A stretch of 42,987 nucleotides of DNA from Acidimicrobiia bacterium. GTDB lineage: Bacteria > Actinomycetota > Acidimicrobiia > IMCC26256 > JAMXLJ01. The stretch covers positions 1 to 42,987 of the forward strand of contig JAMXLJ010000044.1 in assembly GCA_024281095.1 (NCBI GenBank), given 5' to 3'. Below are positions 21,952 through 42,249 of this stretch, piece after piece (the first letter of the stretch is position 1; each line of letters begins with the position of its first letter). The position numbers and the translations under genes are program-made. The notes under the pieces were generated by a model. The model searched no databases and had not been told where the DNA came from. It saw only the letters and a program-made list of their open reading frames with translations.

Positions 21952-22021
21952 TCGGACGTGTGCGCGCTGCACACAGCCGTCCAACTCGTAACGTCCGACG
22001 CCACGAGGCGTGTGTGGGGCG

Positions 22022-22057
22022 TTGCCGCGCGGTCGCGGCTAACGATATAGTCTATAT
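22022..22057 (+). promoter_or_regulatory. Promoter with AT-rich palindrome upstream of the FAH-family gene
   Basis: TTGCCG (22022-22027), an 18-nt spacer and TATAGT (22046-22051) form a promoter. The -10 box is part of a perfect inverted repeat ATATAGTCTATAT (22045-22057), very unusual in this GC-rich DNA. Similar words occur in three other island promoters and may be sites for the GntR/FCD regulator encoded at 34.8 kb. The leader to ATG 22196 is about 135 nt. Confidence 0.6.
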
Positions 22058-22195
22058 ACCTGCCTCCGAACCGACGCTTCGGGGGCTCGCGACGCTTCGT
22101 TCGGGTGCCAGAACCGCGTGCGGAGCCCGTCCCTGTCAGCGGGGTCACAAATAGAGGTGCAGCAGGCACCGTTCGACCGCAAGGAGATCGTCCTG

Positions 22196-23044
22196 ATGCG
22201 TCTCGCCCGCGTCGTGTCACCCGAGGGTCCGACCGTTCTCGCGCGCCTCGACGACGGGCAGGCGGTACCGATCGTGACGTGTTCCGCCCGGTTCGCGAGC
22301 GACGAGCTGCGCGACGCGCTCGCTGCGGACGTCGACCTCGGCTCGATCGACCCGATCGGCGAGAGCTTTCCCGTCGCCGGTGCGAGCTGGCGCGCTCCGC
22401 TGTGCTTCCCCCAGAAGATCCTTGCGATCGGCTTGAACTACGCGGACCATGCACGCGAGGCCCAGCTCGAGATCCCTTCGAACCCGATGCTCTTCACGAA
22501 GTTCACGAACGCGATCATCGGCCCGGACGAGCCGATCCGTTACCGGCGAACGGACTCCGAAGAGGTCGACTACGAGTGCGAGCTCGCGGTCGTGATCGGA
22601 CACCGCGCCCGCAACCTCGCGGTCGAGCATGCGCTCGACGCGGTGTACGGCTACACGATCTGCAACGACATCTCCGCGCGCGATGCGCAGTTCAGCGACG
22701 GCCAGTTCTCGCGCGCGAAGTCGTTCGACACGTTCTGTCCATTGGGGCCCGTCGTCGTGACGGCCGACGAGATCGGCGACCCGCAGGCGCTCGGGATTCG
22801 CACGCGCGTGAACGGGCACACGGTTCAGGATTCGACGACGGCCGAGATGATCTTCTCCGTGGCGGAGCTGATCGCCTACCTTTCCCGGTTCATGACGCTC
22901 GAGCCCGGCGACGTGATCGCGACGGGCACACCTGCGGGCGTCGGCATGGCGCGCACGCCGCCGCTGTACCTCGGCGACGGCGATGTCGTCGAGGCCGAGA
23001 TCGACCGTCTCGGCGTGCTGCGCAACCCCGTCGCCGTCATCTGA
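22196..23044 (+). CDS. Fumarylacetoacetate hydrolase (FAH) family protein
   Basis: The 282-residue protein has a short N-terminal domain and then the FAH fold. The landmark GLNYADHAREA comes first. Metal ligands are in DYECELAVVIG (E127, E129) and NDISARD (near residue 158), and a GDVIATGTPAGVG block lies near the C-terminus. Family members hydrolyse C-C bonds in acylpyruvates, or act as decarboxylases or hydratases in aromatic and heterocycle breakdown. AAGGAG 9 nt upstream supports ATG 22196. It is convergent with the amidohydrolase module (16-nt gap) and has its own island-type promoter, so a late ring-cleavage step is likely. Confidence 0.92.
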   Translation: MRLARVVSPEGPTVLARLDDGQAVPIVTCSARFASDELRDALAADVDLGSIDPIGESFPVAGASWRAPLCFPQKILAIGLNYADHAREAQLEIPSNPMLFTKFTNAIIGPDEPIRYRRTDSEEVDYECELAVVIGHRARNLAVEHALDAVYGYTICNDISARDAQFSDGQFSRAKSFDTFCPLGPVVVTADEIGDPQALGIRTRVNGHTVQDSTTAEMIFSVAELIAYLSRFMTLEPGDVIATGTPAGVGMARTPPLYLGDGDVVEAEIDRLGVLRNPVAVI

Positions 23045-23060
23045 CCGCGTCACCTCTCGG

Positions 23061-24395
23061 TCATCCCGAGAACGTGTGCCTTCCGTTGAAGTACACGTGC
23101 TGGCGCTCGAAACGCACCTGCTCGCGGGCAGGCACGGGAGTGGTGAGGTCCACTTCCTTGCCGGCCTTCATGATCATGCGGAACGACTCGGTGTGCTGCA
23201 GCACGCGAATGTCTTTCGAAGGGTCTCCGTCCACGACGAGGATGTCGGCGAGCTTGCCGGCATCGAGACTGCCGATCTCCGACTCCCAACGGGGCAGGGT
23301 CCGCGCCGCCTGCAGGGTGCCCGCGTTGATCGCGGCGAGCGGCGAGAGTCCGACGTGGGTGACGAGGATCTCCATCTCCTTCGCGTGCCATTCACCGTAC
23401 GGTGTGAGAGAGAACCCGGCTTCGGAGCCCGCCATCAGCGGCACACCCGCGTCGTAGGCCCGACGAATGTTCTCGGCGGACGTGTCGATCTCGCGTTTCA
23501 GACTGTCGCGTGACGCTGCCGACATCTCGGCGCCCGTCGCGTCGAGCGCGTTCACGAGCAGCGGCAGCGTCGGACAGATCGGGATCTTTTTCTCGGCGAC
23601 CAATTCGAGGCCTTCGTCATCCATGAACGACGCGTGCATGATCCAGTCGAACCCCGCCTTCGCGGCGAAGGTGACCGACTCGGCCGAGCGCGCATGGATC
23701 GTGCACTTCCTGCCGAGTCGGTGCACCTCGTCGGAAAGGAGCTGCAGCTCATCGAGCCGGAACGCGCAGCCGTGGATGGGGTTGTAGTAGCTCGTCGCGT
23801 CACCCGAACCGGCAACCTTGACGAAATCGACCGTGTCCTTGATCTGCAGGCGCACCGCTTCGAGGATCTCGTCCTTGCTGCGCACGAGGACGCTCGCATT
23901 GCCGGGCGGATTGGCGATCCAGTTCGGGAACGCGTCACCGAGACCCTGGTGGGTCGTGATCTCGGGGCCCGCGACGGCGAACCGGGGGCCTTCCACCAGA
24001 CCGGCCTCGACCGCGTCGCGCACCGCGATCGGAACACGGTAGACCGCGGCCGGATCCGACGCGCTCGTGACACCGGCGCGCAGCACCCGCTTGGCGCTGT
24101 GGGTCGCGACGATCGCGCGCCACTCCGCGGATCCGTACATTGCAAGCTCCTCTTCGGAGCGGGGCTCGCCGTACGAGATGTGGCAGTGGGCATCGACGAT
24201 TCCCGGGATGATCGTCGCGTCACCGAAGTCGACAACCGTGGCCGCCGCCGGTTGATGCTTCCACGACTCCGGCAACGCGTCGCGTGCGCCCACCCAGGCG
24301 AGGCGTTCGCCGACGACGACCACGGCTCCGCGCTCGATCGGGTCCGCGCCGGTGCCGTCGATCACACGCCCGTAGAGGATGTACTCGTCGGTCAT
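23061..24395 (-). CDS. Imidazolonepropionase-type amidohydrolase, module I
   Basis: This 444-residue metal-dependent hydrolase has the urease/dihydroorotase barrel. Visible ligands are H70-x-H72 (DAHCH), the carbamylatable lysine K193 (FVKVAG), H234 (TIHAR) and H254 (IMHAS). At the position where relatives have GTDAG, this protein reads GSEAG, so the catalytic aspartate is replaced by glutamate (E325); the paralogue at 28270-29637 has the same change. GKLADILVVDGDP closes the family pattern. Such enzymes open cyclic amides or cleave amide and peptide bonds. AAAGGAA 4-5 nt before ATG 24395 sets the start. It is the last gene of module I. Confidence 0.88.
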   Translation of the reverse strand: MTDEYILYGRVIDGTGADPIERGAVVVVGERLAWVGARDALPESWKHQPAAATVVDFGDATIIPGIVDAHCHISYGEPRSEEELAMYGSAEWRAIVATHSAKRVLRAGVTSASDPAAVYRVPIAVRDAVEAGLVEGPRFAVAGPEITTHQGLGDAFPNWIANPPGNASVLVRSKDEILEAVRLQIKDTVDFVKVAGSGDATSYYNPIHGCAFRLDELQLLSDEVHRLGRKCTIHARSAESVTFAAKAGFDWIMHASFMDDEGLELVAEKKIPICPTLPLLVNALDATGAEMSAASRDSLKREIDTSAENIRRAYDAGVPLMAGSEAGFSLTPYGEWHAKEMEILVTHVGLSPLAAINAGTLQAARTLPRWESEIGSLDAGKLADILVVDGDPSKDIRVLQHTESFRMIMKAGKEVDLTTPVPAREQVRFERQHVYFNGRHTFSG

Positions 24396-24435
24396 GGGGT
24401 TCCTTTCGTTCCGCGGCCGCAGGCCGAGTTCGCGA

Positions 24436-25623
24436 TCACGTCGAGGTGGGACTGATGGTTCGAGCCGGCGCGGGGGTGCCGGTGGGCACGTGAGACGCGG
24501 TCTTCGCGAGACGGGTCCGGATGGCCTCGCGCTTACCAACCCATGACACGAAGGGCGAACGGAGCCGCTCGAGGCCGCGCGGGCACGTCGCCGAGATGAG
24601 CCCCCACAGGTACGTCCACCGCTGGGTGTGGGCGACCAGCGGCCGCTCACGTGCCTCCCACTGGTCGAGGCCGTGCTCCAGATCGCCTGCGTAGCGGTCG
24701 GCGAAGACGGCGAGCGCGAGCGCGTTGGCCATCGCCAGGCCGGCTCCCTGGCCCAGGTTGGGCGGCTGCGCATGCACCGCGTCGCCGACGATCGCGACCC
24801 GACCGGCATGCCAGCGCGAGACCCGGACCATGGAGAACGCGTCCCACCGCGCTTCGGTTTCCGGGGTGATGCGCCGGATGTAGTGCTCCAGCGCAGGGAA
24901 CGACCGGACCCACGCGTCCTGGTCGACCGGGACGCGTCGCGCCGCGATGTCGTCGTTGCGACCGCAGAGCGCGAGGTAGATCCAGTCGCGGTGGCACGGC
25001 GTGTAGAGGATGCGCCGCGTGCCCGACCAGTACTCGACGCACCGGGACGCCTTCGCGCCGCGACACTCGAGCTCCGTACGCGGGATCAGCAACCTCGTCG
25101 CGCCGTCGCGCAGCGTGCGCTTGGCCCGAAGCAGACCAACCGAGTCACGGACGCGTGAATGGATGCCGTCGGCTCCGACGACCAGGTCGGCCCGCAGGGA
25201 CCTGCCGTCGCCAAGATGCAGCTCACCCGACGGAGCGGCGCCGACGACCTTGTGCCCCGGCTCGATGGTGACGCCGAGCGATACCGCCGCTTCCTGCAAC
25301 GCCGCGTGCAACGTGGGCCGCAGCATCGTGAACAGGCGCTCGGCCGGGCCGTGTTCGTATTCGAACTGTTCCACGAGACCGAGCCGCTCGTCGCGCACCT
25401 GGAACTGGTGGATGGGTTGCGCGGTCGCCAGCGCGCGGTCGAGCACACCGAGCGCGTCGAGCACCCGAAGCCCGTTCTCCCACACGTAGATGCCCGCACC
25501 GATCTCGCGCAGCTGCGGCGCTTGTTCCCACACGCGTGTCTTCCAACCCCGACTGGCGAAGGCGACGGCCGCGGCCAGGCCACCGAGGCCGGCTCCCGCG
25601 ATCTCAACCGAACGTCGGTGCAC
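24436..25623 (-). CDS. Single-component FAD-dependent aromatic monooxygenase, module I
   Basis: The 395-residue flavoprotein of the PHBH/salicylate hydroxylase group has GAGLGG for ADP binding (residues 10-15), GADG (150-153) and GDAVHAQPPNLGQG (280-293), which contacts the flavin. It would hydroxylate an aromatic or heteroaromatic ring with NAD(P)H and O2. A strong AAGGAGG 4 nt before GTG 25623 sets the start. Its paralogue at 33571-34731 shares long identical runs such as YVWENGLRVL and GTRRILYTPC, so the two likely act on related compounds. It lies between the hydrolase and amidohydrolase genes of module I. Confidence 0.93.
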   Translation of the reverse strand: MHRRSVEIAGAGLGGLAAAVAFASRGWKTRVWEQAPQLREIGAGIYVWENGLRVLDALGVLDRALATAQPIHQFQVRDERLGLVEQFEYEHGPAERLFTMLRPTLHAALQEAAVSLGVTIEPGHKVVGAAPSGELHLGDGRSLRADLVVGADGIHSRVRDSVGLLRAKRTLRDGATRLLIPRTELECRGAKASRCVEYWSGTRRILYTPCHRDWIYLALCGRNDDIAARRVPVDQDAWVRSFPALEHYIRRITPETEARWDAFSMVRVSRWHAGRVAIVGDAVHAQPPNLGQGAGLAMANALALAVFADRYAGDLEHGLDQWEARERPLVAHTQRWTYLWGLISATCPRGLERLRSPFVSWVGKREAIRTRLAKTASHVPTGTPAPARTISPTST

Positions 25624-25659
25624 AACGCCTCCTTGTGGCCGCGCGGCACTGCCGAGGTG

Positions 25660-26517
25660 TCACTGCGGGACGTCCCGCGCGGCGGATGCGTCAGCCGCAT
25701 CGAGTTGTGCAGTGAGGTGCCGCAGAAAGCTCTGCTGGATCCGATTGAACAACTCCGGCTTCTCGAGACAGGCCAGATGGCCCGCGCTCGAGAACTCGAC
25801 GTAACGCGAACCGGGGATCGCAGCTGCGACGGCCCTCCCGTATCGGGGCAACGTCACGAAGTCGTCGGCCCCGACGGTGACGAGCGTGGGCGCGGTGATC
25901 GTTCGCAGCAGGTCTTCGGCGTCGTGGTGGAGCCCCGCGTCGTACTGACCGGCGTGCGAGCCGAACGGCATGCTGCGGACGAACGCCCCGACCGTGCCGA
26001 GGGCGCCGCCTCCGAAACCGTGATCGCGCAGGTGGTCGGGCGACACGAGGAAGAAGGAGTAATTCGACCACGACTCGCCGTCGCCGAGGCGTGCGCTGGC
26101 GCGCCGGGCTTCGAGCCACGCCCCCAGGTGCGGCGCGGCGCGCGTCGACGGCCAGCTGCCGTGCAACGAGAGCGACGACACCCGAGCCGGCCATCGGCGC
26201 GCGACGGCAAGCGCGACCGCGGAACCAAGCGAGTGCCCGACCAGATGGGCCGACGACCAATCGAGAGCGTCCATCGCGGCGGCGACGTCGCCCGCCATCG
26301 CGTCCGTACTCCACCCACCGCGCGGAAGCGGATCGGACCCGCCGGTGCCCGCGTTGTCGAGGAGCAGGCACGTCGCCCAGCGCGTGAACGCAGGAAGCTG
26401 TGCCAGCGTCCAGAACGAGCCGGGCAAACCGGTGCCCGCGATCATCACGACCGGGACGGGGCCACACCCGACGGTCTCGAACGAGACGCTCCGCCCGCCA
26501 GTGTCGATCGTGGTCAT
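25660..26517 (-). CDS. Alpha/beta hydrolase, module I
   Basis: The 285-residue hydrolase has the elbow GHSLG (nucleophile S96), an acid in GADDFVTLPRY and the catalytic histidine in SSAGHLACLEKP. The IAGTGLPGSFW region carries the oxyanion loop. AGGAG 8 nt upstream supports ATG 26517. The paralogue at 30061-30900 shares the TLPRY and SAGHLA blocks. Within the module it may hydrolyse the ring-opened product, an ester, or an enamine/aminoacrylate-like intermediate as RutD does. That last idea is inference from the neighbouring Rid-family gene. Confidence 0.88.
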   Translation of the reverse strand: MTTIDTGGRSVSFETVGCGPVPVVMIAGTGLPGSFWTLAQLPAFTRWATCLLLDNAGTGGSDPLPRGGWSTDAMAGDVAAAMDALDWSSAHLVGHSLGSAVALAVARRWPARVSSLSLHGSWPSTRAAPHLGAWLEARRASARLGDGESWSNYSFFLVSPDHLRDHGFGGGALGTVGAFVRSMPFGSHAGQYDAGLHHDAEDLLRTITAPTLVTVGADDFVTLPRYGRAVAAAIPGSRYVEFSSAGHLACLEKPELFNRIQQSFLRHLTAQLDAADASAARDVPQ

Positions 26518-26548
26518 GGCGGACGCTCCTGGCTCGGCCGGTGGGGTC

Positions 26549-27019
26549 TCAGTGACCCGACACCCCGGCGTCGGAGCGATCGGGCAACACGGCAACTCCG
26601 TCGACTTCGACGGTGAGGCCCGGGAGCGCGAGTGCGGTGACCCCGAGCAGGGTGGAAGCCGGATACGGCGGATCGAAGTACTCGCCGCGGATCGCGTGCA
26701 GTGCCTCGCGCGCCCGTACGTCGGTCAGGTACACCTTGAGCGACACGACGTCCCGCAACGTCGCGCCGAGCCGCTCGAGGGTCGCCACGAGTGTGTCGAG
26801 CGTGTAGCGCAACTGCGCCTCGGGATCTCCCGGATGGACGACCCGGCCCTCGTCGTCGAGCGCGGTGTGGCCGGCGAGGAAGACGAGGTTCCCGGCGACG
26901 CGGGCGTTGGAGTACAGCCCGACCGAGAGTTGGCCGTCTGTCGCAGCGACGACGTCTGTCGGCTGGTCCGTCGTGTCGTCCGTGGCGTGGTCCGTGGCGT
27001 GGTCATGGCGCGCGCTCAC
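26549..27019 (-). CDS. Rid (YjgF/YER057c/UK114) family protein, module I, with Asp/Thr-rich N-terminal extension
   Basis: The 156-residue protein has a normal Rid domain from about residue 30 (LVFLAGHTALDDEGRVV, then ATLRDVVSLKVYLTD). The substrate-binding arginine of true RidA enamine/imine deaminases (PAR-S/V-C) is replaced: here the motif is PAST, with S122, so it belongs to an Arg-less subgroup with unsettled chemistry. The first 23 residues (HATDHATD, then DTTDQPTD) are an unusual acidic repeat encoded by tandem 12-mers. GAAGGAG 5 nt before GTG 27019 supports that start. It is the first gene of module I behind its own promoter. Confidence 0.87.
   Translation of the reverse strand: MSARHDHATDHATDDTTDQPTDVVAATDGQLSVGLYSNARVAGNLVFLAGHTALDDEGRVVHPGDPEAQLRYTLDTLVATLERLGATLRDVVSLKVYLTDVRAREALHAIRGEYFDPPYPASTLLGVTALALPGLTVEVDGVAVLPDRSDAGVSGH
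26978..27001. repeat. Tandem 12-bp repeat in the Rid gene 5' end
   Basis: Two exact copies of GTCCGTGGCGTG and a degenerate third encode the HATD-HATD stretch of the Rid-family protein. The reading frame is kept because the unit is 12 bp, so copy number could change without a frameshift. Confidence 0.7.
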
Positions 27020-27050
27020 GTGTGCTCCTTCGCACCCGCTGATTCTTCAT

Positions 27051-27078
27051 ATCCTATAGTTGATAGCTTTTGGGTCAA
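27051..27078 (-). promoter_or_regulatory. Promoter of catabolic module I (TTGACC-16-TAGGAT)
   Basis: On the minus strand TTGACC (27078-27073) precedes TAGGAT (27056-27051) by 16 nt. The spacer is AT-rich and contains CTATCAACTATAG, a dyad related to the other island promoters. The -35 box overlaps the stop codon of the upstream MFS gene, so module I has its own start but could also receive read-through. The leader to GTG 27019 is about 25 nt. Confidence 0.55.
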
Positions 27079-28250
27079 GGACGTGGCGAAACCGGAGGCG
27101 GGACGACGCGCTGGCGCGACGCCCCGTGCGCGACCCACTGGGCGCACGAACCGCAGACGGCCACGCACACGGCCGCGCCGACGAAGACCGTCTTCAGGCC
27201 CGCCGTGGACGCGACGACCGCGAAGCCGATCGAGCCGATCGCCGCACCCCCGTCGAAGCACAGGTTCCATGCCGTCGAGCTGGACGCGAACTCGTCGGGC
27301 CCACGACGGTGCATGACGTCCGCGAGCGTCGCGGTACCGAGCACTCCGCACCCCGCGCCGGCCGCGGCTGCGGCGACCACGACCGCCATGCCGTCGGCGA
27401 GCACGCCGATTGCCAGCGAGCCGACGAGGGTCATGATCACACCCGGGATCACGAGCAAGGCGAACGGCACCCGATCCACCCTGGCGCCCGCGACGAGCCG
27501 GCCCGATGTCATCGCGATGCCGAACGCCAGCAGCGCACCCGAGCCCACGTGCGGATGGAGCAGCACCAGGAAGCTGTAGACGGCACCGAAGAACATCGCC
27601 GCAGGGAAGAACGACAGCAGCGATGCGAGCACGCCGCGATCGCGAAGCGCAGCCTGAACCGAGCCTGTTTCGGGCACTGCGAGCGCTTGCCGGGGGAGCC
27701 GCAGCCACGCGAGGACGGCACCGCCTGCCGCGACCGCGCTCGCGACGACGAAGAGCACCCCCCGCTGGCCGCCGTCGAACAAGGCGACGCCGAGCGGCGG
27801 GTAGACGATTCCGGCACCGGCCGTGAAGAACCCGTAGATGCCGAGCGCGCGTCCGCGTCGTTCGGGGTCGGCGAACACCGCGCAGAGCGCCGCACCCACG
27901 ACGGCGATGATCCCGAAGCCCGCACCGCGGACCGCGGTCACCACGAGGATCACGGCGATGTGCGACGAGAACGAGTAGCAGAGCCCCGGAACACCGATCA
28001 GTGCGAGGCCGAGCACGAACACGCCGTGCGCGCCCTTCCGGCGCAGGATCGACGGCATGAGCGCCTGACACGCGACCGTCGCGGTCATGAACACGCCGGT
28101 TGCCAATCCGGCCCCGAGGCGGCCGCTGCTCTGTTCCGCGATCAACGGCACGGTCGGCAACAGCAGGTAGAGGCAGCTGAAGCCTGCGAACGTCGACGCG
28201 ATCACGAACACGACCGCGCGGCGCGCGACCAGCGTGGGTGCCGCGCTCAT
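27075..28250 (-). CDS. Major facilitator superfamily transporter
   Basis: The 391-residue membrane protein has about twelve hydrophobic segments in two halves. MFS landmarks include DPERRGRALGIYGFFTAG after the fourth segment and a long cytoplasmic loop in the middle (residues about 190-205). It is the last gene of the module II operon, 19 nt after the amidohydrolase stop, so it probably imports the pathway substrate or exports an intermediate. The start at ATG 28250 lacks a strong ribosome binding site and could rely on coupling. Confidence 0.9.
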   Translation of the reverse strand: MSAAPTLVARRAVVFVIASTFAGFSCLYLLLPTVPLIAEQSSGRLGAGLATGVFMTATVACQALMPSILRRKGAHGVFVLGLALIGVPGLCYSFSSHIAVILVVTAVRGAGFGIIAVVGAALCAVFADPERRGRALGIYGFFTAGAGIVYPPLGVALFDGGQRGVLFVVASAVAAGGAVLAWLRLPRQALAVPETGSVQAALRDRGVLASLLSFFPAAMFFGAVYSFLVLLHPHVGSGALLAFGIAMTSGRLVAGARVDRVPFALLVIPGVIMTLVGSLAIGVLADGMAVVVAAAAAGAGCGVLGTATLADVMHRRGPDEFASSSTAWNLCFDGGAAIGSIGFAVVASTAGLKTVFVGAAVCVAVCGSCAQWVAHGASRQRVVPPPVSPRP

Positions 28251-28269
28251 GGACTCGACCGAAGTCCCG

Positions 28270-29637: not shown

Positions 29638-29662
29638 CGTGGAGCCTCCTCGACCGTGAATC

Positions 29663-30900: not shown

Positions 30901-30907
30901 CGGTGCC

Positions 30908-32115: not shown

Positions 32116-32139
32116 CGTTCGTCGCCTGTCGAGAAGGGC

Positions 32140-33270: not shown

Positions 33271-33318
33271 GTGGCGGGTCTCCTTGTGCTCGCGGCGACC
33301 GGACTGCGTTGTCGCGAT

Positions 33319-33350
33319 GTCGACCGCGCTCACGCGGAGCGCGGTTCGAC
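33319..33350. promoter_or_regulatory. Hairpin in the leader of module II
   Basis: GTCGACCGCGCTC (33319-33331) and GAGCGCGGTTCGAC (33337-33350) pair over about 13 bp with one bulge and a 5-nt loop. It lies in the predicted 5' leader (about 175 nt) of the module II transcript. It may stabilise or attenuate the mRNA. Confidence 0.4.
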
Positions 33351-33451
33351 ATCACGACCGCCGGCGCGCTGCCGGCCAGGAACCAGCCTGAGCCTTCGGC
33401 TCCGGACCTCGGGCAGCTCGGTCGAAGCGTCAAACGGCAGGTTCGATAGAA

Positions 33452-33482
33452 TATACTATTCGGGCTCCGGGGCCGGTGTCAA
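33452..33482 (-). promoter_or_regulatory. Promoter of catabolic module II (TTGACA-18-TAGTAT), with overlapping divergent -10
   Basis: On the minus strand a perfect TTGACA (33482-33477) is followed after 18 nt by TAGTAT (33458-33453). The AT-rich core GATAGAATATACTATTC is a near-palindrome with ATAG/CTAT ends. On the plus strand TATACT (33452-33457) is a possible -10 for the divergent monooxygenase. The two promoters overlap, so one bound regulator could control both. Confidence 0.65.
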
Positions 33483-33528
33483 CGGACCGGTGTCAACGGA
33501 CCGGTGTCAACGAACCGGTGTCAACGAA
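33473..33528. repeat. Four tandem 14-bp repeats carrying TTGACA
   Basis: CCGGTGTCAACGGA occurs twice (33473, 33487), then as CCGGTGTCAACGAA twice (33501, 33515), with a fifth CCGG start. Each unit read on the minus strand contains TTGACA; the unit nearest the module II gene forms its -35 box. The array also lies in the probable leader of the divergent monooxygenase. Confidence 0.9.
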
Positions 33529-33570
33529 CCGGCGGCATTCCCGTGCGGTCGATCGGGGGGAACTGCGCGC

Positions 33571-34731
33571 GTGACCACGTCTCGACATGCGGAGATCGCC
33601 GGCGCGGGCCTCGCGGGGCTCACGGCCGCGGTGGCGCTGGCCCGGCAGGGTTGGACCGTGCGCGTACACGAATCCGCGCCGGAACTGCGCGAGATCGGCG
33701 CCGGGCTGTACGTGTGGGAGAACGGCCTGCGGGTGCTCGAGGCGCTCGGCGTGCTCGAAGACATCGCACCGAACGCCCACCACGTGACCGACTTCGACGT
33801 CGTCGACGAGCGGTTCCGCATCGTGCAGCGGATGTCGTTCTCCGAGGCGCGCGGCGAGCGACTGTGGACCGTGCTGCGTCCCGAGCTCCACAAGGCGCTT
33901 GCGCAGCGCGCCGAGGCGAACGGCGTGGAGATCGTCACGTCGTCGAGGGTCGTCGCGGCAACGCCCGACGGCACGATCGCAACTGCCGCCGACCGCACCT
34001 ACCGGGCCGATCTCGTGATCGCAGCCGACGGCGTCAACTCGACGATCCGAGACTCGCTGGGCCTGCTCGCGCGCAAGCACTACCTGCTCGACGGCGCGAT
34101 CCGTCTGCTGGTGCCGCGTAGCTCGGTCGAACGTTCGGATCCCCAGTACCAGCGTTGCATCGAGTACTGGAAGGGGACGCGCCGCATCCTCTACACACCG
34201 TGCAGTCCGGATCACGTGTACCTCTGCTTCACCGGCCGCGCCGGCGACGAAGCAGCAAAACGGCTCCCCATCGACGTTGACATGTGGATGCGGGAGTTTC
34301 CGCGTCTCGCGTTCGCGATCGAGCGCGTCACGCCCGACACGCCGGCGCGCTGGGACCGATTCCCCATGGTGAAGGTCCACCAGTGGCGCCGTGGGCGTGT
34401 CGCGGTGATCGGTGACGCCGCGCACGCGCAGCCACCGAACCTGGGCCAGGGCGCGTGCCTGGCGATGTCGAGCGGCCTCGCCCTGGGCTCGATGCTCGGC
34501 ACCAGCAACGACATCGAGGGCGCGCTGGAGCGTTGGGAAGCGTACGAACGTCCCATCGTGCGCCACACGCAACGCTGGACCTGGCTGTGGGGCCTGGCAT
34601 CGGTCGCGTTCCCGCACCGGCTGCAGCGGGCGAGGTCGCGGTTCGTCTCGTGGCTCGCGCACCGGGACTGGGTAGCACGCAATCTCGAGCGCACGTCACG
34701 CCACGTGCCCGCCGGCGCGCCCGTCGATTAG
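33571..34731 (+). CDS. Single-component FAD-dependent aromatic monooxygenase, module II
   Basis: The 386-residue paralogue of the enzyme at 24436-25623 has GAGLAG (residues 11-16), AADG (near 150) and GDAAHAQPPNLGQG (about 282-295). The whole chain aligns with its paralogue, so both should hydroxylate related rings with NAD(P)H and O2. It is transcribed away from module II across the 14-bp repeats. The start is GTG 33571 after a weak GGGGGGA. The frame stays open far upstream, but that part overlaps the amidohydrolase gene antisense and has no flavoprotein features. Confidence 0.93.
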   Translation: MTTSRHAEIAGAGLAGLTAAVALARQGWTVRVHESAPELREIGAGLYVWENGLRVLEALGVLEDIAPNAHHVTDFDVVDERFRIVQRMSFSEARGERLWTVLRPELHKALAQRAEANGVEIVTSSRVVAATPDGTIATAADRTYRADLVIAADGVNSTIRDSLGLLARKHYLLDGAIRLLVPRSSVERSDPQYQRCIEYWKGTRRILYTPCSPDHVYLCFTGRAGDEAAKRLPIDVDMWMREFPRLAFAIERVTPDTPARWDRFPMVKVHQWRRGRVAVIGDAAHAQPPNLGQGACLAMSSGLALGSMLGTSNDIEGALERWEAYERPIVRHTQRWTWLWGLASVAFPHRLQRARSRFVSWLAHRDWVARNLERTSRHVPAGAPVD

Positions 34732-34781
34732 GCCCGCACGCTTCTCGCGCCGGCAAACCGCCGTCGTCAGCCGAACCTTCG

Positions 34782-34787
34782 TATCAT
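34782..34787 (+). promoter_or_regulatory. -10-like box (TATCAT) upstream of the GntR gene
   Basis: TATCAT lies 28 nt before ATG 34816 and 17 nt before GGGAGG. No convincing -35 is visible. Confidence 0.35.
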
Positions 34788-34815
34788 CGTGCACACCGGA
34801 GCCAGGGAGGCTTCC

Positions 34816-35553
34816 ATGGCAACTGGACGTGGGAAGACGCCCGTCGTCAGCAAAGCGCCGGCGACAACCGCGCGACCGTCGATGAACCCCGTCGCGCAGA
34901 GCTCCGTGGTCGACCGGGTCGGTCGCGAGCTGCGACGTGCCGTCCTCGACGGGCGGCTGCGGCCGGGGCAGAAGTTCTCGATCTCGCAGCTCAGCTCCGA
35001 GCTCGGAGTGAGCCACATCCCGGTGCGCGAGGCGCTGCGGCACCTCGAGAGCCAGGGCCTCGTGCAACTCCGGCCGGGTCGAAGCGGCGTCGTCACGCCG
35101 ATCAACGAAGCCGACCTGCACGAGATCTACCTGTTGCGAGAAGCGATCGAGACCGCGCTCATCCGCGAGGCGGCACCCAAGTACACCGACGAGCATCTCG
35201 CGACGCTGCATGACCAGCTCGTCGCGATGGAGGCCGAGGTCGGCGACCCCGAAGGTGACCAGTTCTGGCTGTCGCACCATCAGTTCCACTGGGGTTTGCT
35301 CGAGCCCGCCGCGAGTGCGTGGAGCGAGCGTCTGCTCGAACCGTTGTGGCACGCAGCGGAGCGGTACCTCCGCCTCTTCTTCGTCGAGGGCGTCCAGCTG
35401 GGTCCATCGATGACGGAGCACATCGCGCTGTACGACGCAGCCGAGCGGCGATCGGCGAAGCAGTTGAGCGACGTGCTGCGCTCGCACCTGCGCGAGAACC
35501 TCGAGATCCTGAGCCGCAGCGTTCGCACCCTCGAGACGAATTACGCGTCCTGA
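34816..35553 (+). CDS. GntR family (FadR/FCD subgroup) transcriptional regulator
   Basis: The 245-residue regulator has an N-terminal winged helix-turn-helix (about residues 34-100: SISQLSSELGVSHIPVREAL then LESQGLVQLRPGRSGVV). An all-helical FCD ligand-binding domain follows. Candidate metal-binding histidines are in HHQFHWGLLE, TEHIALYDA and RSHLREN. FCD regulators sense carboxylic acids and catabolic intermediates and often repress at AT-rich palindromes. It is the only regulator gene in the island, which makes it the likely controller. GGGAGG 5 nt before ATG 34816 supports the start. A basic, proline-rich N-terminal tail of about 30 residues precedes the helix-turn-helix. Confidence 0.92.
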   Translation: MATGRGKTPVVSKAPATTARPSMNPVAQSSVVDRVGRELRRAVLDGRLRPGQKFSISQLSSELGVSHIPVREALRHLESQGLVQLRPGRSGVVTPINEADLHEIYLLREAIETALIREAAPKYTDEHLATLHDQLVAMEAEVGDPEGDQFWLSHHQFHWGLLEPAASAWSERLLEPLWHAAERYLRLFFVEGVQLGPSMTEHIALYDAAERRSAKQLSDVLRSHLRENLEILSRSVRTLETNYAS

Positions 35554-35584
35554 CGAGTGCCCGTCGCCGCCGGCCACGGTGCGC

Positions 35585-36697
35585 TCATGCGTCGCCACCG
35601 CGAACGAACGCATTGCCGAGTGCGGCGGGTTGGCGGACCCGGCCGATGACGCCAGCGAGCACGGCGATCGTCAGCGCGTAAGGGAAGGCCAGCCACAGCA
35701 ACGACGGGAGCGTCACATGTGGCTGACGGATCCCCAGCACGACCGCGCCGAGCAGGATCACGACCGTCGTGACGGAGCCCGCGGTCAACAGGCGCGGCGC
35801 GCCGGCCGGCGCGCCCGCGCCACGCCGGCGTTTCACGAGCGTGGAGACGAGGTACACGGCCGCCAGCGCGGCGAGGACGATCCACACGCTGCGGGGCACG
35901 AAGGACTGGCTCTGGAGCCGCAGCTGGAGCGCGTCCGCGCCTCCGAACAGCAGCGCGGCCGCGAAGACGCCCAGGGGCCGCCAACCGCCCACGATCACCG
36001 CGGCGAGCGCGAGGAACCCGCGCCCGCTCGTCATGCCGGCGAGGAACGTGCCGACCAGTCCGATCGAGAGGAACGCGCCGCCGACGCCGGCGAGCGCACC
36101 CGCGATGAGCACGCCCTCCCACCGCAGGCGTCGAACACTCACGCCCGCCGTCTCGTCCGCTTCGGGCACCTCGCCCGCGGCGCGGATCCGCAGGCCCCAG
36201 CGCGTCCTGAAGAACGCGATCCACACCAGCGGCACCAACGCGAAGCCGACGTAGACGAGCGGAATCTGACGGAAGAGCGCGCTGCCCAGCAGTGGTAACT
36301 GATCAGCGCCGGGGATGGTCATCGCGGCCATGCGTTTGATGAAGATGTTCGGCCGTGACGCGACGTATTGCTGGAAGGCGAACACGGACACGCCGGCGCC
36401 GATGATGTTGAGTGCGACGCCGACGACGATCTGATCGGCCCGGGCCTCGATCGTGGCTACGGCCATGACGACCGCCAGCAGCACCCCGGCCAGCAGGCCG
36501 ACGGCGACGCCGGCCCAGACATTGTGCGTCTCCGCAGCTCCCCAGAATCCTCCGAACGCGCCGACGAGCATCATGCCTTCCAGACCCACGTTGATCACAC
36601 CGGCGCTCTCGGACACGAGCTCGCCGAGTGCGACGATCAGCAGCGGGCTCGCGATGAGGATCGCGGCCCGGAAGAACTCGCTGTCGAATGGCTGCAT
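35585..36697 (-). CDS. BMP-type ABC importer permease 2
   Basis: This 370-residue permease of the branched-chain/ribose type (BPD_transp_2) starts MQPFDSEFFRAAILIASPLL. It contains the typical GLEGMMLVGAFGGFWG, a VNIG/ALNIIGAGVS-like region, and the cytoplasmic coupling stretch RIRAAGEVPEADETAGVSVR. An extra C-terminal pair of hydrophobic segments extends past the usual end (residues about 295-360). Together with permease 1 it forms the membrane channel for the BMP binding protein and the double ATPase. It is the last gene of the importer operon, convergent with the GntR gene (31-nt gap). Confidence 0.92.
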   Translation of the reverse strand: MQPFDSEFFRAAILIASPLLIVALGELVSESAGVINVGLEGMMLVGAFGGFWGAAETHNVWAGVAVGLLAGVLLAVVMAVATIEARADQIVVGVALNIIGAGVSVFAFQQYVASRPNIFIKRMAAMTIPGADQLPLLGSALFRQIPLVYVGFALVPLVWIAFFRTRWGLRIRAAGEVPEADETAGVSVRRLRWEGVLIAGALAGVGGAFLSIGLVGTFLAGMTSGRGFLALAAVIVGGWRPLGVFAAALLFGGADALQLRLQSQSFVPRSVWIVLAALAAVYLVSTLVKRRRGAGAPAGAPRLLTAGSVTTVVILLGAVVLGIRQPHVTLPSLLWLAFPYALTIAVLAGVIGRVRQPAALGNAFVRGGDA

Positions 36698-36738
36698 GGC
36701 GTCGTCTGCCTTCTCCGTTCGCGCGGTGCTCGTCGCCG

Positions 36739-37848
36739 TCAGGTCGCGTCTGCCACCGATGCCAAACCGGGTTGCACGCGAGGCGGTGTGTCCTCGTTCG
36801 CATCGACACGTCGCGCGTGGAGGGCGCGTACGAGGAGACCTGAGCACGCGACGAGCACGACGATGACACCCTGCGTGATGAAGACGATCTCCGACGGCAC
36901 GTCGGCTCGGGCCTGCATGACGCCTCCTCCGGTGGCGAGGGCGGCGAACAGGAGCGCCGCGGGGACGGAGCCAATGGGCGAGTTGCGCGCCACCAGCGCG
37001 ACGACGATGCCCGTGAAGCCGACGTTTCCGGTGAAGCCGGATGTGAGCATGTGACGCTCACCGCCGAGTACGAGACCCGCTCCGGCGAGGCCGGCGAGCG
37101 CGCCCGACAGCAGGAATCCCAGGACGACGACGCGGACGGTGGACACACCCGCGTGGCGGGAGCACTCGTCGTTCTCTCCGGTGAGCCGAAGCTTGAACCC
37201 GAAGACCGTGCGGTTGATCAGGAAGACCATCGCCGCGACCGCGACGAGGCTGAGGATCGCGTCCGCGGAGAACGGGGTGCCGTTCGCCAGCTCGGGCCAT
37301 CGGAACGCGCCCGGGATGAGCTTGCTCTGGAAGGAAGCCTTGCCGGGCGCCTTCATCGGGCCCCGCACGACCCATTCGACGATCTGGCGCGCGATGAACG
37401 TGAGCATCAACGTGGAGACGATCTCGTTCACGCCCCGCTTCGCCCAGAGCACCGCGGCGATCGCCGCGTACACCGCCGCAGCGATCATCGCGACGATGCA
37501 GCTCAACGCGATCGCCGGCACCGACGGCAGTGACGGCCCCTCGACCGCGACCAACGTCGCGAAGATCCCGCCGATGATCACCTGTCCCTCGAGGCCGAGG
37601 TTCACCTTCCTCGACCGGAACGCGACGATCCAGCCGAGCGCGACGAGGATGAGTGCAGGCATGCGGGCGGCGGTGAGGTAGATCTGCCGTCTCGAGCCGA
37701 ACGCGCCGTCCCACAGCGCGCGGGCCGCGGCACCTGCATCGTGGCCCGTTGCCTGCACGAGGAGCATCGACAGCAACACGCCGGTGATGGTCGCGGCGAC
37801 CGCGAGGGCCACGCTGAGGACGGACTCACGCAGCTGCTCTGTGTTCAC
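36739..37848 (-). CDS. BMP-type ABC importer permease 1
   Basis: The 369-residue BPD_transp_2 permease has about ten hydrophobic segments, the early VNLGLEGQVIIGGIFATL motif, and the coupling stretch RLTGENDECSRHAGVSTVR. Such heterodimeric permeases carry nucleosides, purine-like compounds or other heterocycles. GGGAG upstream supports GTG 37848. Gene order (ATPase, permease 1, permease 2) is canonical. Confidence 0.92.
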   Translation of the reverse strand: MNTEQLRESVLSVALAVAATITGVLLSMLLVQATGHDAGAAARALWDGAFGSRRQIYLTAARMPALILVALGWIVAFRSRKVNLGLEGQVIIGGIFATLVAVEGPSLPSVPAIALSCIVAMIAAAVYAAIAAVLWAKRGVNEIVSTLMLTFIARQIVEWVVRGPMKAPGKASFQSKLIPGAFRWPELANGTPFSADAILSLVAVAAMVFLINRTVFGFKLRLTGENDECSRHAGVSTVRVVVLGFLLSGALAGLAGAGLVLGGERHMLTSGFTGNVGFTGIVVALVARNSPIGSVPAALLFAALATGGGVMQARADVPSEIVFITQGVIVVLVACSGLLVRALHARRVDANEDTPPRVQPGLASVADAT

Positions 37849-37876
37849 CGGCGCTCCCGGATGGCGACGTTCAGGC

Positions 37877-39457
37877 TCATGCGTCGACCTCGGTCAGCTC
37901 GCCGCCGAGGTCGTCGACGGCCTCTCCCCCCAGCAACAGACCGAGCCGCTCGTAGGTCGCGTCCTGCCGGTCGAGGACGGCGAGGAATCGTCCGTCGACC
38001 ATGACCGCGACACGGTCGGACAGCTGCAGCACTTCCTCGAGCTCCGTGGAGATCATGAGGATGGCGCAGCCGCGTTCTTTTTCGGCTACCAGCCGCCGCA
38101 TCACGAATTCCGCGGCTCCGACGTCGAGGCCCCGGGTGGGCTGCGCGGCGATGAGGAGCTGCGGCGTGCGCGAGAGCTCGCGCGCGAGCACGACCTTCTG
38201 CTGGTTGCCGCCCGACAGTTGCCGGATCCGCACGCGAGGGCTCGGAGCCCGGACGTCGAACTCCTGCATCAGCGTGGTGCAGTACTCGTCGGCCGCGCGT
38301 TCGGAGACCACGCCGCCACGCTGCATCCGGCCGAGCGCGAGCTCCTTCATGAGCAGGTTGTCGCGGACCGACAGCTCGAGAGCGACGCTCGTGTGGTGGC
38401 GGTCCTCGGGGATGTACGCGCCACCACGGCGGTAGAAGTCGATCGGCTGGATCGAGGTGCGCCATTCGTCACCGAAGCGGAAACGACCGCCGGTTGCCGC
38501 GTCGAGACCGGTGAGCACGCGCGCGAGCTCACGCTGCCCGTTGCCGTCGACTCCCGCGACGCCGAGGATCTCGCCCTCGCGCAACTCGAACGACACGCCA
38601 TCGAGCCGTGGCCGCCCGTCGTCGGACCGCATGGTGAGACCCTCCGCGGCCACGACGACGCGCCCGGGACGGGCCGCCTTCGTCGACACCTGGAACAGGA
38701 TCTCGCGGCCCACGGTCATCCGCGCGAGCTGCGCCTTGTCGGTCGCGGCGACGGAGACCGTGCCGGCGACCTCTCCGTGCCGCAGCACGGTGCAGCGGTC
38801 GGCCACCTGCATCAGCTCGTCGAGCTTGTGGGTGATGAAGATGATCGAGTGGCCCTCGGCCGCGAGGTTGCGCAGGATCCTCACCAAGTGGTGCCACTCG
38901 ACGGGTGTGAGGACCGACGTCGGTTCGTCGAAGATGAGGATCTCGGCGCCGCGGAACAGCAGTTTGACGATCTCGACCCGTTGGCGCGTGCCAACAGACA
39001 GGTCCCCGACGACCGCATGAGGGTCGACTTCGAGGTGGTAGGCGCGGGACAGCCCGGTGACCTGTTCGGCGATGCGGCGCGTGTTGGAGAAGATGCGCGT
39101 GCCCGACGCGCCGAGCGCGAGGTTCTCGGCGACCGTGAGGGTCGGCACGAGTGCGAAGTGCTGGTACACCATGCCGATCCCGAGCTTGCGCGCGTCCGCA
39201 GGGTTGCGGATGCGCACCGGCTTGCCGTCGACCTCGATCGAACCCGACTCGGGTTGCAACATCCCGCTGACGACGTTCATCAGCGTCGACTTCCCGGCGC
39301 CGTTCTCGCCGAGGATGGCGAGCACCTCGCCGCCGTGCACTTCGAGGCTCACATCGCGGTTCGCGACGACGCCGGGGAAGCGCTTCGTGATTCCGCACAG
39401 CCGGAGACGCGGCACGGTCGGACTGCGATCCGACCCGACCGTCTGGGCCATGCTCAC
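37877..39457 (-). CDS. BMP-type ABC importer ATPase with two nucleotide-binding domains
   Basis: The protein of about 526 residues has two fused ATPase domains. Domain 1 has Walker A GENGAGKST (50-58), signature LSVGTRQR (153-160) and Walker B ILIFDEPT (173-180). Domain 2 has a degenerate Walker A (GVDGNGQREL), signature LSGGNQQKVVLAREL and LLIAAQPTRGLDVGA. The changed Walker A and the glutamine in Walker B of domain 2 are normal for the ribose/BMP ATPase class, so only one site is fully active. GTG 39457 is chosen since GAGG lies 7 nt upstream; a GTG at 39463 and an ATG at 39451 are near alternatives. Confidence 0.94.
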   Translation of the reverse strand: MSMAQTVGSDRSPTVPRLRLCGITKRFPGVVANRDVSLEVHGGEVLAILGENGAGKSTLMNVVSGMLQPESGSIEVDGKPVRIRNPADARKLGIGMVYQHFALVPTLTVAENLALGASGTRIFSNTRRIAEQVTGLSRAYHLEVDPHAVVGDLSVGTRQRVEIVKLLFRGAEILIFDEPTSVLTPVEWHHLVRILRNLAAEGHSIIFITHKLDELMQVADRCTVLRHGEVAGTVSVAATDKAQLARMTVGREILFQVSTKAARPGRVVVAAEGLTMRSDDGRPRLDGVSFELREGEILGVAGVDGNGQRELARVLTGLDAATGGRFRFGDEWRTSIQPIDFYRRGGAYIPEDRHHTSVALELSVRDNLLMKELALGRMQRGGVVSERAADEYCTTLMQEFDVRAPSPRVRIRQLSGGNQQKVVLARELSRTPQLLIAAQPTRGLDVGAAEFVMRRLVAEKERGCAILMISTELEEVLQLSDRVAVMVDGRFLAVLDRQDATYERLGLLLGGEAVDDLGGELTEVDA

Positions 39458-39506
39458 GCCCACACCTCTTTCGTGTCACGAACGCCGGATACCCGGGCCT
39501 TCGACC

Positions 39507-39559
39507 GGACGGGCCCTCGGCTGCCAGGCCAGGCGCTGCCTGCCAACCGAGGGCCGTCC
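39507..39559 (-). other. Intercistronic hairpin between binding-protein and ATPase genes
   Basis: GGACGGGCCCTCGG (39507-39520) pairs with CCGAGGGCCGTCC (39547-39559) over 13 bp with one bulge and a 26-nt loop. It follows the substrate-binding gene, a usual place for an RNA-stabilising or partial-terminator hairpin that lets the binding protein be made in excess. Confidence 0.6.
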
Positions 39560-39577
39560 ATCACCGCCGGCCTCCCC

Positions 39578-40657
39578 CTACGTGCCCGCGGTGACTTCCG
39601 TCGGGAGCTTGAGCTCCCCGGACTTGATCTTCGCGATCGTGTCGTCGGCCTGTTTCACGAGGTCGGGCTTGCGCCACTTCGGGCACAGCTCGAACCGCTG
39701 CACCTCGGGCACGTCGAGGTTGTACGCGCGTGTCGGCTTCGGAAGGTTGCCGTCGACGTAGTCCTTCACGGCAAGCTCGACCATCTTCGAGATGTCGGAG
39801 CGGTTGTTGCCGACGATGTTGTCGCCGCGGTCGCACCGGTCGACGACCGGGCTGAACAGCTTGACGTCTTTGCCCGACTCCTGCGCGGCCTGCTGGATGC
39901 CGACGAAGCCGGCGTCCACGAACCCGTAGAGCACGTCCGCGCCGGACGCGATCTGGGCCGACGCGGCCTGCTTCGCACCCGGCACGTCGGAGTACCCGCT
40001 GATGACGGTCTCGATGACCTGGATGCTCGGATCGATGGACTGTGCACCGCGCTTGAACCCTTCGAACGCGGTGCGCTCGATCGGGAACACCGGACCGGTG
40101 ACGTAGCCGAGCTTCTTCGTCTTCGTCAGCTTCGCGGCGATCTGGCCCATCGGATACGTCGGATAGCCGTAGATCGTCACGTAGCCGAACACGTTCGCCG
40201 ACGCCTCACCCGGCTTGTAGAAGCCCGACGGCACGATGAACGTCGTGTCGGCCATCTGGGCCGCGACCGGCAGCACGGAGCTCGCGATGGTGATGTCCGC
40301 GATGACGAGCTTGTTCCCGGTAGCGAGGTTGCGGATGGCGTCGCCGGCGGCCGCCTGGTCCCCCTCGAGGCTGTCGGCAACCGACAGCTTCACGCCGTAG
40401 GTCTTCGCCGCCGTCTGCGCACCTTCGTAGACGCTCTGGAAGTACGCCTGGTCGTTGCGCGGGCCGCCGATCGCGTTGCCGATCGTGAAGTCCTTGCCGT
40501 TCTTCGAGACCGTCGCGCTCGAACCGCCGCTGCTCTCCCTCGATCCACCCGAGCTCGATTTGCTGTCGGAGCCGCAGGCGGCCGCGACGAGCGCCAGGCA
40601 CACGACCGCCGCGATCGCCCACCCACGCTTGCGTTTCCTCACCCCGTGCATCTGCAC
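39578..40657 (-). CDS. BMP family substrate-binding lipoprotein
   Basis: The 359-residue lipoprotein has a basic N-terminus (RKRKRG), a hydrophobic core and a lipobox-like AAAC-G near residue 28, then a serine/glycine linker. The mature part is a BMP-type periplasmic-binding fold (DSLEGDQAAAGDAI, VFPIERTAFEGFKRGAQ, GADVLYGFVDAGFVGIQQAAQE). BMP proteins bind purine nucleosides or other heterocycles. GGAAGG 8 nt upstream favours GTG 40657 over ATG 40651. First gene of the importer operon, behind the strongest promoter of the island. The ligand is unknown. Confidence 0.92.
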   Translation of the reverse strand: MQMHGVRKRKRGWAIAAVVCLALVAAACGSDSKSSSGGSRESSGGSSATVSKNGKDFTIGNAIGGPRNDQAYFQSVYEGAQTAAKTYGVKLSVADSLEGDQAAAGDAIRNLATGNKLVIADITIASSVLPVAAQMADTTFIVPSGFYKPGEASANVFGYVTIYGYPTYPMGQIAAKLTKTKKLGYVTGPVFPIERTAFEGFKRGAQSIDPSIQVIETVISGYSDVPGAKQAASAQIASGADVLYGFVDAGFVGIQQAAQESGKDVKLFSPVVDRCDRGDNIVGNNRSDISKMVELAVKDYVDGNLPKPTRAYNLDVPEVQRFELCPKWRKPDLVKQADDTIAKIKSGELKLPTEVTAGT

Positions 40658-40680
40658 CGCGCTTGCCTTCCTTTCGTTAC

Positions 40681-40706
40681 GGTCTCCGTCGGAACCGATG
40701 GAGACC
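40681..40706. promoter_or_regulatory. Leader hairpin before the BMP gene
   Basis: GGTCTCC and GGAGACC form a perfect 7-bp stem, extended by an inner TCGG/CCGA pair. It is placed about 10 nt before the ribosome binding site, within a leader of about 175 nt. It could affect translation, but I recognise no riboswitch class. Confidence 0.4.
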
Positions 40707-40840
40707 GGTCTGCCGGCGTGTCGCTGTTCGGATGGATGCGGGGGGAGGAAGCCCGAATGCATGGCGATCGGGCACCACGTCGCGAGTACCCGATGGCGAC
40801 GTGTGACGTCAGGAACCACCGATCCGACGTGATTGGCGAT

Positions 40841-40870
40841 ATCGTATATAGTCACGCGATCGAGTGTCAA
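40841..40870 (-). promoter_or_regulatory. Promoter of the BMP importer operon (TTGACA-18-TACGAT)
   Basis: On the minus strand a consensus TTGACA (40870-40865) precedes TACGAT (40846-40841) by 18 nt. The -10 region GACTATATACGATATC is AT-rich and shares CTATATAC with the promoter of the FAH-family gene. Confidence 0.7.
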
Positions 40871-40922
40871 CAACGCTTGATGTCACCCACGCGTGCATCT
40901 GTCCCACGTCGTCGGGCGAGCG

Positions 40923-41981: not shown

Positions 41982-42249
41982 GAAAGCAGGCGCGCCTCCC
42001 GCCCGGGGATTTTCCGAGGAACGGCAGACGTGGCGGCCGGGACGGTCATCGCTGCCGCGGGTCTTCGAAACCGACGGAAACCGTCTTCTGGCCATTGTGG
42101 ATATATCTCCTGTAATGGGACGATTCGGAACGGCAGGGGCGCGGGTCCGGGAGCCGAGCGCGATTGCCGGCTCCTCGAGCCTGTTCCCGCCGCCCATGGA
42201 CGGACACCCGCACGTCGTGCGGCACGCAGACAGAGCCGGAGGCTCGACC

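Follow-up and report, generated by a model that had tools for sequence, protein, structure and literature searches.

The stretch of DNA analysed here, hereafter the window, is 42,987 nucleotides long (70% G+C) and is contig C44 of the 4.39-Mb draft genome of an Acidimicrobiia bacterium (G000). It carries an island of 18 genes, at about 22,000-40,873, in which two copies of a four-enzyme set lie around one importer and one regulator. A first-pass annotation had described two parallel sets together with FAH, SDR, Amidohydro_2, MFS and GntR/FCD proteins and a complete BMP-type importer, and a Pfam scan bears this out: every named family of the island proteins is recognised except the HIT-like one. 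The genes and features are listed below with reference to the kpi (4-hydroxypyridine) pathway, to the flavin adenine dinucleotide (FAD) monooxygenase MHPCO of vitamin B6 breakdown, and to RidA. Likely gene starts were picked by eye, several starts in the raw list of open reading frames (ORFs) lying too far upstream.

22046-22055, + strand: operator-like site TATAGTCTAT, upstream of FAH, within the 13-base palindrome ATATAGTCTATAT
22196-23044, + strand: FAH-family enzyme (PF01557, 265 bits), KpiD-like by family; assigned by Pfam, start by eye from the translation
23061-24395, - strand: AH1a, amidohydrolase-fold protein (PF01979) of set A, KpiC-like by family, Glu replacing the usual catalytic Asp; start by eye
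24436-25623, - strand: FMOa, MHPCO-related FAD monooxygenase (PF01494) of set A
25660-26517, - strand: ABHa, alpha/beta hydrolase (PF00561) of set A, KpiB-like by family, nucleophile motif GHSLG retained; start by eye
26549-27019, - strand: RIDa, Rid-family protein (PF01042) of set A, Ser at the RidA Arg105 position
27049-27058, - strand: operator-like site TATAGGATAT, immediately upstream of RIDa (set A transcript)
27075-28262, - strand: MFS transporter (Pfam), accessory; start approximate, as the ORF runs into AH1b
28270-29637, - strand: AH1b, amidohydrolase-fold protein (PF01979) of set B, Glu replacing the usual catalytic Asp (GSESG)
29663-30064, - strand: RIDb, Rid-family protein (PF01042) of set B, Ser at the RidA Arg105 position
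30061-30900, - strand: ABHb, alpha/beta hydrolase (PF00561) of set B, motif GVSLG retained
30908-31378, - strand: small protein, HIT-like label unconfirmed, accessory
31375-32115, - strand: SDR oxidoreductase (Pfam), core island gene
32140-33270, - strand: AH2, Amidohydro_2 enzyme (PF04909), core gene, nearest solved relative PtmU3; start by eye
33451-33460, - strand: operator-like site AATAGTATAT, in the divergent AH2/FMOb promoter region, overlapping ATAGAATATACTAT
33473-33532, + strand: 14-bp tandem repeat in 4.3 nearly identical copies (97% matches), separating the operator-like site from the start of FMOb
33571-34731, + strand: FMOb, MHPCO-related FAD monooxygenase (PF01494) of set B
34789-35553, + strand: GntR/FCD regulator (Pfam), proposed binder of the four sites
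35585-36697, - strand: ABC permease 1 (BPD_transp_2; Pfam); start by eye
36739-37848, - strand: ABC permease 2 (BPD_transp_2; Pfam)
37877-39463, - strand: ABC ATPase with two nucleotide-binding domains (Pfam)
39578-40657, - strand: BMP-type substrate-binding lipoprotein (PF02608; Pfam); start by eye at the signal peptide
40840-40849, + strand: operator-like site TATCGTATAT, upstream of the importer operon

The + strand encodes FMOb, FAH and GntR, the - strand all other island genes. Set A (AH1a, FMOa, ABHa and RIDa; 23,061-27,019) lies entirely on the - strand and, by its spacing, forms a single transcript. Set B comprises AH1b, RIDb and ABHb (28,270-30,900, - strand) and the separately located FMOb (33,571-34,731, + strand). 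The HIT-like label of the product of 30,908-31,378 is unconfirmed, as the protein has no Pfam match up to E = 1 and its AlphaFold single-sequence model is poor (predicted local distance difference test score, pLDDT, of 51).

The gene order recurs in other genomes at 56-80% identity, more than expected by chance. The first-pass annotation had treated conservation of the neighbourhood as decisive, and we find it in full in one genome and in pieces in two others. G816 has the complete order AH1a-FMOa-ABHa-RIDa-AH1b-RIDb-ABHb-SDR-AH2-FMOb(+)-permease-permease-ATPase-BMP at 58-80% identity; the metagenome-assembled genome APA_bin_18 (G452) has the same order over two contigs (SDR to AH1a, and ATPase to AH2), with the BMP gene beyond the contig end; and G814 carries AH1a-FMOa-RIDa-AH1b-RIDb on a 5-kb contig. 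The searches covered 396 genomes of the phylum (E <= 1e-100), 61 around the window (E <= 1e-40), 394 of the class of G131 (E <= 1e-90, some genomes shared) and 60 around G452 (E <= 1e-80). In the sample around G452, 3 of the 60 genomes carry both AH1 types at E <= 1e-230; in the 61 around the window, as in the 396 of the phylum, G000 alone carries both. The island is thus a rare yet conserved neighbourhood.

Simpler clusters resemble one half of it. In G131, FMO, FAH, GntR, Rid, hydrolase, AH1 and ABC genes lie together as a single set, and a plasmid of Rhodococcus rhodochrous BX2 carries a single set of GntR, AH1, HpaB-type oxygenase, hydrolase, Rid and FAH genes. Among 72,556 plasmid records, AH1b matches two at E <= 1e-60 (BX2 being the best) and RIDb matches one at E <= 1e-20, the same BX2 cluster. 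We found no account of what the G131 and BX2 clusters do. Several annotated insertion sequence (IS) transposases flank the BX2 cluster (L031, 4465-18040), which suggests a catabolic transposon.

The two sets are paralogous to different degrees, with identities of 54% for FMO, 55% for AH1, 40% for Rid (over 111 residues) and 36% for the hydrolases. FMOa and FMOb form sister clades (support 98/97, or 100/99 with MHPCO added), as do AH1a and AH1b with moderate support (86/81). Each of these clades contains orthologues from other islands, and the duplication therefore predates the split of the islands. The expectation that the paralogue pairs are each other's closest relatives thus holds for FMO and, moderately, for AH1; for the Rid and hydrolase pairs the trees do not resolve a sister relation. 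RIDb is 54-57% identical to the Rid protein of the Rhodococcus rhodochrous plasmid cluster as compared to 33-40% to RIDa, and since it is closer to the former, the two sets may owe their Rid genes to different sources. The trees were built from chosen rows rather than from all matches (22 AH1, 16 or 17 FMO, 17 Rid and 11 hydrolase); the Rid tree took only some of the 32 Rid matches, a further G816 Rid (C52) and a G000 hydrolase (C49) were left out, and every tree carried a long-branch warning.

Five places in the window have at least 12 A/T in 16 bases, and four of them lie upstream of FAH, upstream of RIDa, in the AH2/FMOb gap and upstream of the BMP importer. These four promoter segments share a 10-mer with the consensus TATAGTATAT, the score of which was reached by none of 300 single-base shuffles of the segments. 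With two mismatches allowed, all 10 matches in the window fall at the four promoters, as compared to 0.24 expected; with one mismatch, the 4.39-Mb genome has 4 matches, all at island promoters, and the reversed control pattern has 2. That one regulator and one importer serve the system, as had been proposed, is supported by this site common to all four promoters, and the site also ties FAH, which lies outside the main transcripts, to the rest. The island is thus probably a co-regulated regulon under one GntR protein, the predicted binder of the site. A search with two mismatches in L065, L066, L041 and L031 gave 1, 0, 0 and 0 matches, the L065 match lying outside the island. The G816 island has neither such a site nor a match to the window's GntR; absence of the site is what one would expect there if GntR binds it. 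The fifth A/T-rich 16-mer (42101-42116), near a small ORF at 42097-42603, does not match the island site.

Both monooxygenases score well against PF01494 (99.6 and 100.6 bits), and MHPCO is their closest solved relative, with 230 bits for FMOa and 255 for FMOb as compared to 105 and 90 for the next solved enzyme; the identities are 39 and 41%. We take the substrate pocket of MHPCO to be formed by Tyr54, Tyr82, Arg181, Arg211 and Tyr223. Tyr54, Arg181, Arg211 and Tyr223 are identical in all seven island FMO rows, and Tyr82 is Phe in all seven. The type of ring on which these enzymes would act is well indicated by this kinship. Relatives of 36-47% identity are found on plasmids of Rhodococcus, Arthrobacter, Variovorax and others; in L030 (8998-17667; Rhodococcus) and L034 (8929-15412; Arthrobacter crystallopoietes) the FMO relative has as neighbours ABC genes and genes for a periplasmic binding protein and a further amidohydrolase, and L030 also has a succinate-semialdehyde dehydrogenase.

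The AH1 proteins score 102 and 93 bits against PF01979, and their nearest solved relatives are of the arginine carboxypeptidase, Xaa-Pro dipeptidase and ochratoxinase types. All 22 aligned rows keep the metal ligands (HxH, Lys, His, His), and the AH1 proteins of the kpi-like G131 and BX2 clusters are 37-41% identical to those of the island. The original label, imidazolonepropionase-type amidohydrolase, did not hold, nor did a histidine or imidazole-acetate route: the HutI model TIGR01224 has a cut-off of 298 bits, of which the two proteins reach 53.5 and 62. Scores against the allantoinase models are likewise far below cut-off.

Building on what the sequence shows directly (which genes are present and in what order, the pair of paralogous sets, the promoter site in common and the conservation elsewhere), we propose that the island is a GntR-controlled regulon that imports and degrades a pyridine-type N-heterocycle, working as a doubled kpi pathway; we put this reading at about an even chance. 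In kpi of Arthrobacter sp. IN13 (GenBank MT469879), as far as described in the part of PMC7356986 on which we draw, KpiA (PF01494) hydroxylates 4-hydroxypyridine, KpiC (PF01979) cleaves the ring of 3,4-dihydroxypyridine, with extract containing KpiC adding 32 Da, KpiB (PF00561) turns the cleavage product into a compound that is most likely 3-formylpyruvate, and for the splitting of this compound KpiD (PF01557) has been proposed. By analogy, the BMP importer would take up the compound, an MHPCO-family flavoenzyme would hydroxylate the pyridinol or pyridone ring, and the PF01979 protein would open it, like KpiC with O2. The alpha/beta hydrolase would then take off an N-acyl (formyl) group, as is thought for KpiB, and the Rid protein would accelerate amine release from the resulting enamine or imine, perhaps a carboxylate-free one; SDR and AH2 would trim side groups and FAH would cleave the last C-C bond. 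Sets A and B would serve two similar rings or two related substituted rings, the opened products differing more than the rings. The first-pass proposal that an N-heterocycle is hydroxylated and opened is thus supported, as judged by the MHPCO-closest monooxygenases and the gene content matching kpi.

The Rid arginine (Arg105 of RidA) binds the substrate carboxylate, and about 10% of RidA-subfamily proteins carry Ser in its place (PMC4433059, in part). Because of that role, a carboxylate-free enamine would be a natural candidate substrate for a Rid protein without Arg105, and the part of PMC7356986 considered here does not settle the fate of the enamine that follows KpiB. An Arg-type Rid is encoded elsewhere in G000 (C112).

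Several observations weigh against this proposal. The two island Rid proteins lack the deaminase Arg105, with Ser at this position in all seven island rows and in BX2 and Asn in G131, and no deaminase activity was seen for Rid proteins without this arginine in the part of PMC8113886 consulted. AH1a and AH1b have Glu at the catalytic Asp position (20 of the 22 rows), Asp being found there in G131, BX2 and the five solved relatives aligned; the exchange may reflect changed chemistry or merely mark a subfamily. Kinship to MHPCO does not settle the reaction of the monooxygenases, since KnmB1, 45% identical to MHPCO, is a pyridine-ring hydroxylase (PMC9838390, in part). Neither a KpiP-type permease nor an AraC-type KpiR2 is among the island Pfam matches (the transporters being BMP-ABC and MFS, the regulator GntR only), and the likeness to kpi is judged by protein families, sizes and gene content rather than by Kpi sequences. 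The consensus TATAGTATAT was built from the same four sites, and their match to it is thus not independent evidence, while its absence elsewhere in the 4.39 Mb is; furthermore, the GntR-bearing G131 and BX2 clusters have no such site, their GntR proteins being only 27-29% identical to that of the island. Finally, the conserved core is smaller than the window's version. In G814 (L067, G814:C90, 1772-3433) there is no ABHa between FMOa and RIDa in an otherwise similar island, so that ABHa may be dispensable or may have been lost there. MFS does not lie between set genes in G816, G452 or G814 and has no match in the G816 stretch or the G452 gaps, GntR likewise has no match in that stretch or those gaps, no match to FAH lies in the 7.5 kb that follow AH1a in G816 (only 0.9 kb being visible in G452), and in neither G816 nor G452 does the HIT-like gene separate SDR from ABHb. 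As they are unmatched at their places, we regard these four genes as accessories of the window's version.

The strongest alternative is a route like that of vitamin B6, in which FMO itself would open a 3-hydroxypyridine ring to an N-acyl enamide, AH1 would be a metal amidohydrolase removing the acyl group, and the hydrolase would act on a later ester or C-C bond. MHPCO being by far the closest solved relative, with its pocket residues retained, is in keeping with this, as are the invariant AH1 metal ligands, the hydrolases that make up the named solved AH1 relatives, and the matches of importer and SDR to B6 models, below cut-off. However, the catalytic Asp of AH1 is Glu, the single-set relatives resemble kpi, and no B6-pathway model is above cut-off among the matches listed. 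The 21 PDB sequences listed for ABHb (E <= 1e-15) do not include the enzyme that we take to be the B6-pathway hydrolase. The four importer subunits fall below their NCBIfam cut-offs (186/465, 156/400, 469/670 and 83/400 bits), and with all four subunit models failing we also rejected a vitamin B6 importer as such. On balance we consider the B6-like route somewhat unlikely.

A quinolone system acting on an alkyl- or benzo-4-pyridone of the quinolone or quinaldine type is less probable again. It draws on the pAL1 monooxygenase, 40% identical to those of the island, the gene of which adjoins those for a 3-hydroxy-2-methylquinolin-4-one 2,4-dioxygenase and an alpha/beta hydrolase, and on KpiA, the nearest relative of which is a quinolone hydroxylase (PMC7356986, in part). 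The pAL1 enzyme, however, falls in another tree clade than FMOa and FMOb and has Phe at the MHPCO Arg211 position, and no anthranilate-pathway family is recognised among the island Pfam matches; we therefore think this reading improbable. It is very probable that one of these three readings with a pyridine-type ring, the kpi-like one, the B6-like one or the quinolone one, applies. A pathway in which a nucleoside-type BMP importer would supply a purine, pterin or other diazine to urate-hydroxylase-like flavoenzymes and to amidohydrolases of the imidazolone or hydantoin type is highly improbable: BMP importers of known ligand do include nucleoside binders and the HpxO model matches at 130-148 bits, but this is far under its 500-bit cut-off, MHPCO outscores the flavoprotein monooxygenase structures 3rp6/3rp8 (presumably HpxO) by about 147-165 bits, and the HutI and allantoinase models fail as above.

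Two further routes were rejected. For a riboflavin/lumichrome route (sought, following the part of PMC12746152 consulted, via P450, amidases and catechol dioxygenase), none of these was recognised among the island Pfam matches. For a 3-hydroxyanthranilate/2-aminomuconate route, Rid, FAH and Amidohydro_2 fit, but the island Pfam matches include no 3-hydroxyanthranilate dioxygenase or aldehyde dehydrogenase family.

A bolder reading can also be formulated: the island would be a single pathway for a compound with two pyridine-type rings, or with one ring attacked twice, in which every ring has an FMO and a ring-cleaving AH1 oxygenase of a new Glu-for-Asp type to itself, and every opened ring a deacylase and an arginine-free Rid protein, the latter with a new activity on carboxylate-free enamines. 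We consider it unlikely; if true, O2-using enzymes would have arisen in the amidohydrolase fold in a second lineage, and arginine-free Rid proteins would for the first time have an enzymatic role. KpiC is the sole description of a PF01979 ring-cleaving dioxygenase found in our literature search, and the island offers two conserved sister AH1 lineages with an altered active-site acid for testing KpiC-type cleavage. Pairing of AH1 with an arginine-less Rid in an operon where an enamine is expected makes the function of such Rid proteins directly testable, and the dedicated regulator with its four sites could serve as a simple reporter for finding the substrate.

At its left the island is flanked by a small ORF (21,538-21,951) and, before this, by a gene whose end is at 21,438. 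In G001, a genome of the same genus, nothing matches AH1 at E <= 1e-40, and the nucleotide match of G001 to the window stops at 21,435 (blastn, 19.9 kb compared); the small ORF, which separates the island from the last gene in common with G001, is unmatched in the G001 stretch. At the right, a DUF4037 gene starts at 40,923 and has no match in seven relatives, so that comparison does not fix this edge. Beside the G816 island (L065, 6263-6834), two short ORFs resemble, by eye, pieces of an IS3-type transposase. AH1 homologues also occur in other settings. Of eight loci, the seven from Nocardia and Actinomadura have no other island gene at E <= 1e-6, bar a weak Rid match in L007, and the homologues from genomes of the same taxonomic order or class as the window (L036-L040, L042) have SDR genes as neighbours and no FMO or Rid match. 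A third AH1 type, 50-51% identical to AH1b, accompanies a hydrolase and an SDR in G810-G813, G815 and G816 (the G814 contig being too short) and belongs to a separate system; in G815 (L069, 4128-14293) it is found with an amidase, an alpha/beta hydrolase, a PhyH-type protein, an SDR and an E1 dehydrogenase.

As to known systems, the Rut pathway of E. coli, which the first-pass annotation had invoked, likewise combines a flavin oxygenase with a Rid protein that has an alpha/beta hydrolase at its side, but no RutA- or RutB-type family is among the island Pfam matches, and the analogy to RutC loses weight, since RutC needs an arginine that neither island Rid protein has. The nicotine hybrid pathway, which contains a Rid6 protein for an enamine (PMC7688666, in part), offers an analogy only. 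The vitamin B6 system contributes the closest solved relative of both monooxygenases, with four of the five pocket residues retained; it differs in the residue at Tyr82, Phe in the island, and in its other enzymes, which were not recognised in the island, and MHPCO-like enzymes as a group also include plain hydroxylases. The G131 and BX2 clusters share AH1, Rid, hydrolase, FAH and GntR genes and one monooxygenase with the island, and differ in having one set only, an AH1 with Asp and, in BX2, an HpaB-type oxygenase. Closest in content, and the only one to come close among the papers that our searches listed, is kpi, and it calls for a correction of the earlier statement that no pathway with exactly this content is known: PF01494, PF01979, PF00561 and PF01557 proteins are clustered with a FadR/GntR-type regulator in both. 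As far as the consulted part of its report goes, kpi has one set, no Rid protein in its table, another permease type (KpiP) and the AraC regulator KpiR2, whereas the island has two sets, two Rid proteins, an SDR, an Amidohydro_2 enzyme and a BMP importer. We therefore read the locus as a conserved, doubled and probably co-regulated catabolic island, best understood as a variant of kpi, with a pyridine-type substrate, an AH1 reaction and a use of the two sets that we infer from sequence.

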